Assembly: GCA_900170005.1 (NCBI GenBank)
Contig: LT827128.1
Span: forward strand, 1,240,001-1,304,000
Length of the DNA: 64,000 bases
DNA from: Gordonibacter massiliensis (ex Traore et al. 2017)
Lineage (GTDB): Bacteria > Actinomycetota > Coriobacteriia > Coriobacteriales > Eggerthellaceae
Direction of reading: 5' to 3'
In this document: piece by piece, positions 16,044-62,353 of the stretch
Position numbering within the stretch: position 1 is the stretch's first letter
Layout: every line of letters starts with the position of its first letter
The notes under the pieces: model-generated
What the model saw: only the letters and a program-made list of their open reading frames with translations
The model's database searches: none
Told to the model about the DNA's origin: nothing
Made by a program: the position numbers and the translations under genes

Positions 16044-16134
16044 CGCGCGGGCTCGCTCCCTCTTCGTGTCGGCGAACCAGGCGCGGTCGTTGTGCGCCTG
16101 GTTCGCCGACACGAAGAGGGAGCGAGCCCGCGCG
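16044..16134. repeat. 41-bp perfect inverted repeat over the DUF2461 start
   Basis: Arms 16044-16084 and 16094-16134 are perfectly complementary with a 9-nt spacer (GGTCGTTGT). The right arm is coding sequence of the DUF2461 gene; the left arm contains its only in-frame start codon. No typical terminator U-tract is present. Confidence 0.95.
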
Positions 16135-33896: not shown

Positions 33897-34900
33897 GCCC
33901 CGCGCTCCCCCGTGTCCAGCGCGTCGGACAGAAGCGCGCTCACGCGCTCGACCGCCGCGTCCATCGAACCCGCCAAGGTGAAGCCGGCCGCCGCCTTGTG
34001 ACCGCCGCCGCCCATCGTGCGCGCGAGCGCCGCCACGTCCGTGCCGTCTTTCGCGCGGAAGCTGCCGCGCACCGAGTCGCCCTGGTCACGCAGCATGCAC
34101 GCCACGCGCACACCGCGCAGGGAGCGCAGCGCGTCGATGATGGGCTCGGCGTCGGCCTTGACGGCCCCCGTGTCTTCGAAGTCGGCGCGATTCACCCAGC
34201 TGAGCGCGTAGGCCCCGCCGGCCCCGAAGCGCATGCGCTCGATGGCCAGCGCCTCGAGCCTCACCGAGGGCAGCGAGCGGTTCTGGAAGATGTGCCGCGC
34301 GACGGCGGCGGGGTCGGCGCCCGCCTCCACCATGGCAGCGCCCGCCGCGAGCGCGGCGGCGTCGGTGTTCTGGTACTGGAAGCGCCCCGTGTCGGTGACG
34401 AGGCCCGTGTAGCAGCACGTGGCGAGCTCGGCTCCGCGCTCGGCGCCCATGAGGCCCGCGAGCTCCCACACGAGCATCGTCGTGGCCGCGGTGTCCGGGT
34501 CGACGTAGGCGAGGTCGCTCATGCGCTCGTCGAACGCGTGGTGGTCGACGGTGACCGAGAAGTCGCACGCGTCCAGAAGGCGCGCGGCGGCGGAGTTCAT
34601 GCGGTCGCGCATGGGCACGTCCACCGCCACGAACGTGGAGGCGGAGCCCGCGTAGGTCGTGGCGGGTGCAAGCTCGTCGGCGCCCGGCAAGAACGCCAGG
34701 CGCACGTCGATGGGCTCGTCTTTCGCCAGCAGGCACACGGCCCGCTTGCCGAGCGACCGCAGCGCGTGCATGAGCCCGAGCTGCGAGCCTATGCAGTCGC
34801 CGTCAGGGCTCACGTGCCCACAGATGACGAAGTCGTCGCGCTCGAGCAGCGCGGCGGCCAGCTCGGGCAGGGTCGTGTTCGTTTGGGGCGTGACGCTCAT
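33893..34900 (-). CDS. nrnA: DHH-family phosphoesterase (NrnA-like oligoribonuclease/pAp phosphatase)
   Basis: The DHH motifs are clear: HVSPDGDCIGSQLGL, VDHHAFDERMSD, GLVTDTGRFQY and the DHHA1 glycine motif GGGGHKAAAGFTL. Such enzymes degrade short RNA oligomers and 3'-phosphoadenosine phosphate. Start at 34900 overlaps the rbfA stop by 4 bases. The position between rbfA and truB is standard for Actinobacteria and Firmicutes. Confidence 0.92.
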   Translation of the reverse strand: MSVTPQTNTTLPELAAALLERDDFVICGHVSPDGDCIGSQLGLMHALRSLGKRAVCLLAKDEPIDVRLAFLPGADELAPATTYAGSASTFVAVDVPMRDRMNSAAARLLDACDFSVTVDHHAFDERMSDLAYVDPDTAATTMLVWELAGLMGAERGAELATCCYTGLVTDTGRFQYQNTDAAALAAGAAMVEAGADPAAVARHIFQNRSLPSVRLEALAIERMRFGAGGAYALSWVNRADFEDTGAVKADAEPIIDALRSLRGVRVACMLRDQGDSVRGSFRAKDGTDVAALARTMGGGGHKAAAGFTLAGSMDAAVERVSALLSDALDTGERGA

Positions 34901-35352
34901 GCGTCCTCCCCGTCCCGCGCGCTCTCCTCGGCCTGCTGCTCGGCGACGCGCTCGCTCGCGAACGCGTCGGCGTCGGCAGGCACGTCGGCGTCCGTCGGCG
35001 CCGCCACGGCGCTGCGACGCGCGTCGGCCGCGAGCGCGCTCGCGATGCGCTCCGCCTGGTCGACGCTCTGGTCCAGCAGGAAGCGCAGCTCGGGCGCCAC
35101 GCGCCACGAGAGCTTCCGCGCCATGAGCGAGCGGATGCGCCCGGCCGCCTTCTGGAAGGCCGCCGCCACGTCGTCGTAGCGCTCGGGCTCGGTGGTGTAG
35201 AACACGTTGCACACGCTGCGATCGTAGCTGACCTCGCAGCCCGTGACGGTGACGAGCTCCAAGCGCGGATCGGATATCTCGAACAGCAGGATGCTCGCGA
35301 TGACCTCGCGCGCCTGCTCGTTGACCTTGCGGTTGGAAGAACCCTGCTTCAT
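34897..35352 (-). CDS. rbfA: Ribosome-binding factor A
   Basis: RbfA helps mature the 30S subunit. The conserved KH-like core is visible: KVNEQAREVIASILLFEISD, LVTVTGCEVSYD and LMARKLSWRVAPELRFLLDQ. A C-terminal acidic/alanine tail of about 40 residues (PTDADVPADADAF onward) extends the protein to 151 residues. Its ATG at 35352 lies about 130 bases after the structured element 35481-35597. Confidence 0.93.
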   Translation of the reverse strand: MKQGSSNRKVNEQAREVIASILLFEISDPRLELVTVTGCEVSYDRSVCNVFYTTEPERYDDVAAAFQKAAGRIRSLMARKLSWRVAPELRFLLDQSVDQAERIASALAADARRSAVAAPTDADVPADADAFASERVAEQQAEESARDGEDA

Positions 35353-35480: not shown

Positions 35481-35597
35481 GCAACAGGGGGTGGCACGGT
35501 GTCCACCAAGCGAGTTCCGCACGAGCCGAAACGTCCAGCGGACGTTTCGCGCGAGCAGGACTGCCGAGCGACTGGACATCGCGCCACCCCCTGTTGC
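35481..35597 (-). repeat. Structured element, copy A (infB-rbfA gap)
   Basis: The outer perfect stem is 15 bp (35481-35495 with 35583-35597). It continues, after one mismatch, through about nine pairs (35497-35505 with 35573-35581, one G-U). A 10-bp apical hairpin, CGAAACGTCC-AGC-GGACGTTTCG, lies at 35528-35550. The conserved single-stranded blocks between are nearly identical to copy B at 62242-62353, while the stems differ yet stay paired. It lies within the rimP operon transcript. Confidence 0.8.
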
Positions 35598-35645: not shown

Positions 35646-38423
35646 TTATTCCGTGCGCTCGACTTCCTTCACCTGGTAGCCCTCGATGGTGTCTCCCACC
35701 TTGAGGTCCTGGAACTTCTCGATGCCGATGCCGCACTCGTAGCCTTGCTTCACGGACTTCACGTCGTCCTTGAAGCGGCGCAGGCTGGCCATGACGCCCT
35801 CGAAGATCACGGTGCCGTCGCGCACGATGCGCACCTTGTCGTCGCGGTGGATCTCGCCTTCGGTGATGTAGCAGCCGGCGATGGTGCCCACCTTCGGCAC
35901 CTTGAACGTCTCGCGCACCTCGGCGATGCCGGTGTCCTCCTCCACGATGTCGGGGGACAGCAGGCCCACGCGCGCGGCGTTGATCTCCTCGATGGCCTGG
36001 TAGATGACGCGGTACAGGCGGATGTCCACCTTCTCCTTCTCGGCCTGGGTCTTCGACTTGCCCGTGGGGCGCACGTTGAAGCCGATGATGATGGCGTCGG
36101 AGGCGGAGGCCAGCGTGACGTCGGTCTCGGTGATGCCGCCCACGGCCGAGTGCACGATGTTGATGCGCACCTCGGACTGGTCCATCTTCTCGAACGCGTC
36201 GCGCAGCGCCTCGATGGAGCCCTGCACGTCGGCCTTCACGATGAGGTTCAGGTCGGTCTGCTTGCCCTCCTCGATGCGGCTGAACAGGTCGTCCAGGCTC
36301 ACGTGGGACTTCGTCTCCTGCTCGGCCAGGCGGGCGCGCAGCGCGCGCTCCTCGGCGAGCTTGCGGGCGTCGCGCTCGTCCTCGAACACGCGGAACTCGT
36401 CGCCGGCCGTGGGCACGCTGTTCAGGCCCAGGATCTCGACCGGGTCGGCGGGCAGCGCGGCGTCGACGTGCTTGCCGCGCGGGTCCACCAGGGCGCGCAC
36501 GCGTCCGTAGGACGTGCCGGCCACCACGATGTCGCCCGGGCGCAGGGTGCCGCGCTGCACGAGCACGGTGGCCACGGGGCCGCGTCCCTTGTCGAGGTTC
36601 GCCTCGATGACGAAGCCGGAAGCCTCGGCATTGGGGTTGGCCTTGAGCTCGAGCACGTCGGCCTGCAGGATGATGGTCTCCAGCACGTCGTCGATGTGCA
36701 GGCGCTGCTTGGCCGACACCTCCACGAACATGTTCGAGCCGCCCCACTCCTCGGGGATGACGCCGTACTCGGTGAGCTCCTGGCGCACGCGGTCGGGGTT
36801 CGCGCCCGGCTTGTCGATCTTGTTCACCGCCACCACGATGGGCACGTTGGCCGCCTTCGCGTGGTTGATGGCCTCGATGGTCTGCGGCATGACGCCGTCG
36901 TCGGCGGCCACCACCAGCACGATGACGTCGGTGATGAGGGCGCCGCGGGCGCGCATGGCCGTGAACGCCTCGTGGCCCGGCGTGTCGATGAACGTGATCT
37001 GCTTGCCGTCGATCTCCACGACCGACGCGCCGATGTGCTGCGTGATGCCGCCGGCCTCGCTGGCCACGACGCCCGTGTCGCGGATGGCGTCCAGAAGCGA
37101 CGTCTTGCCGTGGTCGACGTGGCCCATGACGGTGACCACGGGCGGACGGGGCATAAGGTCCTCGTCCTTGTCGTGGTACACGACCGCGTACTCCTCCTCG
37201 GGCGACACGACGCGCACCTTGCGCCCCATGTCGTCGGCGATGAGCTCCACCAAGTCGTCGCCCATGGACTGCGTGAGCGTGAGCACCTGCCCCAGCATGA
37301 ACAGGCGCTTGATGATGTCGTTGGGCTGCACGCCCAGAAGCTCGGCGAACTTGGCCACGGTCGCGCCCTGCGGGATCTCCACCACGGAGTCGTCCAGCAC
37401 GAGCGTGGGGTCGAGGCCCTTCTCGATGGCCTCCATCTCCAAGCGCTCGCGGTTCTCGGCCTCGCGCTTCTCCTTGCGCTTCTTGCGGCGCCCCTCGCCC
37501 TCGTGGGACGTGGCGGCGGCCACGGCGGCGCGGGCCTCGGCCAGCACCTTGTCGCGCTGGAGCTTCTCGGCCTGCACGGCCATCTGGGCGTAGCGGTCCT
37601 CGCCGGAGGGCTGCTGCTGCGCCTCGAGCTCGGGCACGATCTGCTCGAACGAGCCGCGCTTGCCCTTCTTCGGGCCGCGCTCCGGCTTGCCGCCCTTGCG
37701 CGCGGCGTCCTTGGCGCCGCCGGCCGGTGCCGCGCCGCCCTGCTTCTTCTGGGCCTCGATGCGCTGCTTCTCGGCCTCGATCTGCGACAGCAGCGAGTCG
37801 AAGCCGGAAGCCTTCTTCGCGCCGATCACCGGAGCGGGCTTCGGGGCGGAAGCGGACGAGGAGCCCTTCTGCTTCTTGGCGTTGCGCTGGCGCAGGGCCT
37901 CTTCCACGGCCTGCTTCTTCGCGACCTCGGCCATGGCCTTGGCCTGGCGGGCGCGGGCGCGGGCCTCGGCGGCCTCGCGGGCCACGCGCTCCTTCTCGCT
38001 CTCGATCTGGCTTGCCAGGTTCTCGAACGGCGAGGGGGCGGGAGCCTTGGCCGGCTTGTCCGCGGCAGGGGCCTGTCCCGCTTCGGAAGCCTCGGCCTCG
38101 GCGGCCTCGCGGCGGGCGCGCTCGGCCTCGCGGGCGGCGCGCTCCTGCTCCACGGCCTCGCGGCGGGCGCGCTCCTCCTCGGCCTTCTTGGCCTCGGCCT
38201 CGGCGCGCTCTTCGGCGAGCTTGCGGGCCTCTTCGTCCTCCAGCTGGCCCGCGCGCTGCTTGATCTCGGGCTCCAGGTTCTTCCTGATCTTTGCCACGTA
38301 GGCGTCGGCGAGCATGCTCGCATGGCTCTTCGCGGGTATCTTCATCTCGTGCAGCTTGTCGAGCAATTCCTTGCTCGTCATGTCGAATTCCTTCGCCAAC
38401 TCATGTACGCGCATGCTGGCCAT
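35646..38423 (-). CDS. infB: Translation initiation factor IF-2
   Basis: IF-2 is the GTPase that positions initiator tRNA. The N-terminal IF2_N motif [20 protein letters not shown] is followed by a long charged Ala/Glu/Arg-rich linker (about residues 60-330). The G domain has [29 protein letters not shown] and [11 protein letters not shown], and the C-terminal domains are complete to residue 925. ATG 38423 follows GGGAAGAGGAGTGG. It is flanked by rnpM/ylxR and rbfA in the standard order. Confidence 0.97.
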
Positions 38424-56973: not shown

Positions 56974-56997
56974 GGCGGTTCCTTTCTCGCAGGTCGA

Positions 56998-57106
56998 CCG
57001 TAGGGGCGATCTCATGATCGCCCGCTCGCGCAAAGCGCGAGAACGCGGCCCTCGGTTGCTTTTCCGGCTTGCGCCGGAACGGGCGATCAGGAGATCGCCC
57101 CTACGG
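56998..57106. repeat. Palindromic element with three nested hairpins
   Basis: A 16-bp outer stem (56998-57013 with 57091-57106), a 10-bp inner stem (57015-57024 with 57080-57089) and two further 7-bp hairpins inside (CTCGCGC/GCGCGAG and TTCCGGC/GCCGGAA). The arrangement is like a cloverleaf and resembles REP or MITE-type units. Confidence 0.85.
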
Positions 57107-57169
57107 GATCAACTTTGTCGCAGGTAGAACGAAAGGCGCACAGGTTGGCGCTAGTAAGTCAGCGAGGGC

Positions 57170-62241: not shown

Positions 62242-62353
62242 GGGAAGGGGCCGGCGGCGCCCACCAAGCGAGTTCCGCACGAGCCGAAACGCCCAGCGGG
62301 CGTTTCGCGCGAGCAGGACTGCCCGAGCGACTGGGCGTTGCCGGCCCCTTCCC
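62242..62353 (-). repeat. Structured element, copy B (fixB-fixC gap)
   Basis: A 14-bp perfect outer stem (62242-62255 with 62340-62353), about eight more pairs, and the apical hairpin CGAAACGCCC-AGC-GGGCGTTTCG. The blocks between stems match copy A (35481-35597) almost base for base, while the stems differ but remain complementary. It lies within the fix transcript in the same orientation as copy A in its operon. Confidence 0.8.

Follow-up and report, generated by a model that had tools for sequence, protein, structure and literature searches.

A dispersed hairpin element of Coriobacteriia with a conserved core, free but paired stems and a preferred strand: a probable mobile palindromic element

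Results

Two copies of a hairpin element in one 64-kb window

We examined a 64,000-nt stretch of the Gordonibacter massiliensis genome (the window), which contains two copies of one hairpin-forming sequence. Copy A lies in the gap between rbfA and infB, 48 nt from the infB stop codon, and copy B lies between an ETF alpha gene and a FAD-dependent oxidoreductase gene; at each site the element strand is antisense to both genes (Table 1). Copy A comprises a 67-nt core flanked by 25-nt arms, and copy B comprises 22-nt arms around a 68-nt core. Copy A with its flanks folds at -85.1 kcal/mol (z = -7.2), a value matched by 0 of 200 dinucleotide shuffles.

Table 1. Coordinates (window numbering) of the two copies, the parts of copy A and the genes beside it
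Feature	Position	Strand	Remarks
rbfA, left neighbour of copy A	34897..35352	-	Pfam RBFA, E 1.4e-25
Copy A, whole hairpin, long form	35481..35597	+	Model match 35494-35584, 96.7 bits
Copy A left arm, variable outer stem	35481..35505	+	25 positions against 35573-35597, one mismatch
Copy A conserved core, 5' strand	35506..35525	+	Identical in A and B; conserved columns of alignment A1
Copy A apical 10-bp hairpin, 3-nt loop	35527..35549	+	Missing from the short form
Copy A conserved core, 3' strand	35550..35572	+	First 16 nt identical in A and B; conserved A1 columns
Copy A right arm, variable outer stem	35573..35597	+	Partner of 35481-35505
infB, right neighbour of copy A	35646..38423	-	Pfam IF-2 and IF2_N; ORF
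Copy B, whole hairpin, long form	62242..62353	+	Model match 62252-62343, 104.9 bits

A preliminary description of copy A held that its single-stranded blocks are almost the same in copy B and that the stems change in matching ways. Both quoted blocks are in fact identical in the two copies, and the apical, closing and outer stems differ by matching changes as claimed. The first core block (20 nt) has two matches in the window at up to three mismatches, both exact, where 0.01 would be expected by chance. The second (16 nt) has two exact matches in the window and six at up to three mismatches against 3.3 expected; taken alone, the latter number is not significant.

An unfiltered scan of the 64-kb window with the covariance model described below gave nothing above 23.2 bits besides copies A and B. 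The strongest of the weak matches (22-23 bits, both strands) falls on an inverted repeat at 16044-16134 that is very long and nearly perfect, its loop measuring 7 nt, and which we guess to be a fold-back (template-switch) duplication of coding sequence.

A family spread through the Coriobacteriia

Searches of whole genomes bear out the earlier claim that the element is dispersed. At up to three mismatches the 20-nt core block occurs at 19 places in the genome of origin, and the reversed control at none. The covariance model was built on 50 of 61 copies from five congeneric genomes; the 61 copies are 64 motif matches minus 3 judged to be chance folds, and 7 of 57 candidate rows, being near-duplicates or in a shifted register, were left out of the alignment (A1). 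The model gives 34 matches in the genome of origin (E <= 0.001), and the counts in four single-contig genomes are 34, 29, 18 and 31. Matches were obtained in 79 of the family's 138 genomes, in 174 of 396 genomes of the class Coriobacteriia and in 16 of 296 genomes of a phylum sample, one of these lying outside the class; few candidates were scored in these three scans, and their per-genome counts are lower bounds. Copy number varies within genus g22 (at least 29, 12, 1 and 0 per genome). Among the matches listed, the core occurs in records of Gordonibacter, Paraeggerthella, Adlercreutzia, Ellagibacter, Enteroscipio and Rubneribacter. Genomes G192, G259 and G270 (genus g52) are, at a guess, Collinsella-like.

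Carriage by phages or plasmids was considered and rejected: phage sequences held no copies, plasmids gave one weak Collinsella match only, and a single 17-mer match in viral sequences was not confirmed by the model. Matches of 18 nt in Agromyces, Burkholderiales, Acidobacteria and Lachnospiraceae were also discarded, none of them scoring below a model E of 0.01 (the best, L109, reached 18.5 bits, E 0.028). A low-threshold search at the 34 loci of the genome of origin revealed no decayed, opposite-facing second element beside single copies; it returned one weak match in the same direction (L294, 19.0 bits).

A conserved core between stems that vary and remain paired

Each copy forms one long hairpin consisting of an outer stem and an asymmetric conserved core, to which the long form adds an apical hairpin. 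Conservation is confined to the core; the outer stem and the apical hairpin vary yet remain paired. In A1 (50 rows), paired cells make up 96.6% of the total, where shuffling gives a mean of 79.5% and slid controls go down to 28-48%. Both sides are changed in 244 cells against 71.5 after shuffling, and 20 of the 31 pairs show a two-sided change in at least one row. RNAalifold, applied to the alignment, returned the same 31 pairs unaided, and the compensating stems proposed from copies A and B are a trait of the family. The preliminary description had staked its reading on the existence of further copies with maintained stems; many copies were found, and their stems are kept.

Two CGAG/CGAG contacts lie in the core and could be read as tandem G-A pairs. 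The contact is swapped for other complementary pairs (e.g. CACGA/TCGTG) in copies from genomes of another family (presumed Collinsella-like), and one pair flanking it is flipped from C-G to G-C in two copies of the genus. A kink-turn was considered for the core and rejected, since the core does not appear to fit the kink-turn consensus.

Catalogued long forms measure 102-134 nt in Eggerthellaceae (median 113, 80 copies) and 93-157 nt elsewhere (median 113, 38 copies), and short forms, which lack the apical hairpin, measure 81-107 nt (median 87, 24 copies). One shared site holds a short form in genome G000 and a long form in G003, with nearly the same outer stems. The arms of catalogued elements are 14-44 nt long, the Eggerthellaceae median being 23 nt, and shorter or interrupted stems occur among a few of the model matches. 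In the genome of origin, the copies L017 and L019 carry a similar extra core insert of ~70 nt, although they occupy different sites and their outer stems are unrelated.

When outer stems were compared between sites of the same genome, their likeness was no greater than expected from column composition (0.439 observed, 0.44 predicted), so no source-to-daughter pair is visible. Changes at the same site were tallied in 18 orthologous pairs, picked by hand, whose stems could be aligned. In these stems 358 base pairs were unchanged and 34 had undergone a double Watson-Crick change (28 transitions and 6 transversions). A further 28 had changed on one side and stayed paired via G-U, whereas 9 one-sided changes produced a mismatch, and there were 9 differences of length, mostly at stem ends; if changes were independent, we estimate that about 3 double changes would be expected against the 34 observed. 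Variation in the apical stem likewise consists of paired changes, G-U intermediates being almost absent, and close relatives differ by multi-base paired changes and a paired indel.

The hairpin has a preferred strand

G-U pairs of the '+' strand are A-C mismatches on the opposite strand, and the two are far from equally frequent. A core-anchored count over the first 18 pairs of 167 copies with one core type gave 261 G-U and 52 A-C; G-U is the more frequent in 120 copies and A-C in 9, with 38 equal. This count imposed no stem requirement, and it treats related copies without regard to kinship.

The bias was then broken down by context in a catalogue of 145 elements, which demanded a good stem with G-U allowed and whose counts therefore lean towards G-U. 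In Eggerthellaceae the ratio of G-U to A-C is 57 to 10 where both neighbours are antisense, 20 to 3 in the 12 copies called inside oppositely read genes, and 21 to 1 inside genes read in the sense direction; it is 39 to 11 in the other genomes, all contexts pooled. At least 3 of the 23 'inside a gene' calls of our home-made gene caller look false (L004, L010 and L316), all in the sense class. Since copies in either orientation to the gene show the bias, the strand is a property of the element and not of the host transcript. Host mRNA is not the target of selection, the main argument against that reading being the bias inside antisense genes. Folding energies with DNA parameters weakly favour the '+' strand (87 versus 53 of 142 copies). 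For the core alone the '+' strand is not favoured, being the more stable in 69 of 142 copies with DNA parameters and in 45 of 142 with RNA parameters.

Placement at gene edges and flanking signals

Coding sequence is nearer the right end of the element in 108 of 116 copies with genes called on both sides, whether the adjoining gene starts or stops there. The right-hand gene is antisense in 47 of the 61 copies of the genus. Some copies are sense and precede a called start codon by 13-36 nt, some stand directly upstream of a ribosome-binding site, and in some genomes outward-facing pairs of elements bound intergenic regions. Loci L257, L260, L265, L278, L280, L304 and L305 (from genomes G259, G270, G192 and G341) each show such a pair within one intergenic region, with model matches about 65-194 bp apart.

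No U-tract follows the right arm (T at positions 1-6 in 1, 10, 8, 2, 10 and 6 of 61 copies), which rules out an intrinsic terminator. A promoter belonging to the element was rejected as well, TAnnnT counts being near or below expectation in every bin. A short motif, (C/A)AGGTN, is found on the right-hand side of 54 of the 107 copies from Eggerthellaceae and of 3 of the other 38, with a left partner in some only.

Two other repeats were noted. A different palindrome at window positions 56989-57129, with a GTAG-bearing (REP-like) arm, is flanked on both sides by CGCAGGT(C/A)GA, and a similar motif stands to the right of about half of the element copies studied in Eggerthellaceae. A third dispersed repeat, GGATCCTTCGACTC..GCTCAGGATGACA, recurs to the left of elements (L317, L324, L301 and others); it accompanies 6 of 24 copies in G057 plus G067, and part of it accompanies 4 of 27 copies in G000.

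Copies within proteins, empty sites and nesting

Some copies reside in frame inside conserved proteins and have empty sites in congeners. Pfam domains were identified in ten host ORFs (glutamine amidotransferase, RNB, ABC, acyltransferase, GATase_5 with AIRS_C, M18, DUF1385, TsaD and CcmF_C), and the names HisH, RNase R, ABC-F, PurL and fabD are inferred from these domains and the sequence. In HisH and RNase R a single domain match spans the insert. The element is present in HisH in five of seven aligned genomes (one copy each in G000, G003, G057 and G059, two in G001, none in G056 and G058), and the protein is continuous across the empty forms. The pair in G001 (L057) consists of one long and one short element, consecutive and in frame. 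An M18 aminopeptidase carries the element in one of four genomes (G057); it is absent from three congeners, and the protein is continuous when the site is empty. In-frame palindromes are reportedly frequent in Rickettsia, going by the title of a 2002 paper by Ogata.

Reading by eye of ten G057 sites in three congeners found 3 of 30 occupied and 27 empty; no target-site duplication was established at these empty sites. At the empty fabD site of a congener the stem sequence is missing, which suggests that the element carries its own stem to a new site. For the same reason a derivation of the outer stem from target DNA by snapback is not supported as a general rule, and we rejected it.

At four loci one element sits within the apical portion of a second, and three of these loci belong to one orthology cluster. 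Sites are also shared between genera: 31 clusters contain 90 of the 145 elements, some of these clusters joining paralogous or neighbouring copies.

Comparison with known families

The preliminary description knew of no family with this core, and Rfam 15 agrees, no family matching at its cut-off. The window gave no Rfam 15 match; 25 loci searched up to E = 1 gave six, all below cut-off. Two of these coincide with an element: they belong to one microRNA family and fall on the two strands of L013, scoring 28.9 and 28.1 bits where the cut-off is 142. The remaining four fall outside the elements. The Collinsella-1 RNA motif (RF01700) was named from the same bacterial class, according to a table in PMC2864571. 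It gave no match up to E = 1 in 20 element loci from order-level relatives and was rejected as a name for the element.

The closest likeness in traits is to the Rickettsia palindromic elements (RPE), which passages of PMC10969869 describe as dispersed palindromic repeats found between genes and in frame in unrelated genes, frequent in-frame palindromes being known chiefly from Rickettsia. Our element is a palindromic repeat of similar size (~100-150 bp), lying both between genes and in frame in unrelated genes (HisH, M18, RNase R and others), and there are congeners in which such sites are empty. It differs in its hosts, which are Coriobacteriia where RPE belong to Rickettsiales, and in its free compensating outer stem, strand rule, asymmetric conserved core and long and short forms; the two are likened by traits and not by sequence homology, and we do not count the element among the RPE.

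REP sequences and REPINs, characterised in parts of PMC3733652 as short dispersed hairpins, sometimes dimers, share that general form. They are tagged by GTAG/CGTC and linked to RAYT, whereas neither tag is found at the stem base of the element (flanks of 61 copies), its stem sequence is not conserved, and the copy-rich genomes G000, G057, G067 and G270 have no Y1 transposase. This enzyme (PF01797), the sole mobility enzyme searched, is present in 9 of 16 copy-rich genomes and in 4 of 11 with none or one copy, and is absent from G000, G005, G032, G057, G067, G192 and G270; since its presence does not track the copies, Y1/RAYT was rejected as the mobiliser. MITEs such as ERIC and BOX are likewise small, non-autonomous, palindromic and multi-copy, and ORF fusions are reported for some in passages of PMC10969869. 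MITEs are marked by terminal inverted repeats shared with a parent IS and by target-site duplication; the element shows only a weak end motif, the (C/A)AGGTN described above.

Fremin and Bhatt (PMC8040213) report, in the passages available, 3161 candidate structured RNAs from human microbiomes, some palindromic. The one Collinsella example in those passages differs from the element, being 51 bp long and upstream of L7/L12; their catalogue may nevertheless contain an unnamed entry for the element. No description of the element was found in the open-access literature, a weak negative whose scope takes in neither most subscription papers nor the supplementary models of PMC8040213.

Discussion

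We consider it probable that the family is a mobile DNA palindrome of Coriobacteriia, non-autonomous and operating in the manner of the Rickettsia palindromic elements. Copies that sit in frame in unrelated enzymes, nested copies, uneven copy numbers among genomes and sites that are empty in congeners all argue for mobility, and a strand that is fixed whatever the transcript points to a single-stranded hairpin as the acting form, more likely DNA than RNA. The '+' strand would fold into the hairpin while single-stranded, most likely as DNA in replication, repair or transposition, and a trans-acting enzyme would be guided by the core and by the paired shape, not by the sequence of the stem. The conserved core would then be the likely recognition module, with the long free stem read by shape. 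Copies would persist where they do least harm, at gene edges and in in-frame linkers and loops of proteins, and could survive in frame because the element is often free of stops in several frames. At shared sites the pairing might be kept by continued use by the mobility machinery, by strand-biased correction at the DNA level or by a host function. Several points count against this reading. Sites shared by different genera suggest long residence more than ongoing transposition, which speaks against recent activity, and pairing kept after insertion implies a constraint there that a purely selfish element would not need. The search for a partner enzyme, which covered Y1 transposase, gave none that tracks the copies, no target-site duplication was established, the outer stems reveal no source-to-daughter pair, the folding energies favour the '+' strand weakly and not for the core alone, and the copies in the G-U count are related to one another.

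The preliminary description took the conserved core and compensating stems as the mark of a selected RNA, or DNA hairpin, structure. The structured family, the compensating stems and the invariant core have stood; the simplest such case, an RNA selected in the gap between infB and rbfA, is not supported, the '+' strand being antisense to both genes. More broadly, an RNA from the '+' strand, whether a small RNA or a protein-bound cis element, could keep its stems through selection. The strong covariation, the tolerance of G-U chiefly on one strand, the shared-site changes that pass mostly through G-U and the sense copies shortly upstream of called start codons would all suit it, but the right-hand gene is mostly antisense in the genus, the strand rule persists inside oppositely read genes, no marked promoter signal stands at a fixed distance, no U-tract follows, several copies are in-frame protein inserts and the host genes are functionally unrelated. 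We therefore regard such an RNA as unlikely, and the DNA hairpin that the preliminary description had given in brackets fits better.

It is more improbable still that the '+' hairpin serves as a directional transcription boundary, stopping or processing transcription from the non-coding side and so shielding the right-hand gene. Such a role would explain why the right end is nearer coding sequence and why outward-facing pairs bound intergenic regions in some genomes. It leaves unexplained, however, the copies within proteins and those directly upstream of ribosome-binding sites, its stem is not followed by a U-tract, and the side bias would also be expected if the inserted unit had extra DNA on its left. 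In quasi-palindrome correction, template switching on a hairpin copies one arm onto the other. Were this mutation bias acting alone, with neither function nor present mobility, pairing would be kept in any context and with any stem sequence, and the paired variation of the apical stem nearly devoid of G-U intermediates, the multi-base paired changes and the paired indel among close relatives would follow. In its simple form, however, it predicts equal numbers of G-U and A-C, against the 261 and 52 counted, and it accounts neither for the conserved asymmetric core nor for the spread to many sites; of the explanations considered, we give it the least credence.

Beyond the mobile palindromic element, we offer as a tentative possibility a class-wide system in which the core marks a strand-specific single-stranded DNA hairpin, an active process on that strand keeps arbitrary arms complementary at each site, and an enzyme moves the unit into harmless places that include protein linkers. 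If this were true, it would represent an undescribed mechanism of mobility or of hairpin maintenance, and protein-coding palindromes would not be peculiar to Rickettsiales. The hosts are gut bacteria, many of them cultivable, and their conserved enzymes offer an extensive series of orthologous sites, some occupied and some empty, so that the origin, tolerance and loss of inserts are now testable. The one-sided wobble rule provides a way, from sequence alone, to ask which strand of a palindrome matters, and strong covariation of a bacterial intergenic hairpin does not by itself imply a functional RNA. We also note a possible likeness to attC sites, in the placement just after a stop codon and the folding of the antisense strand.
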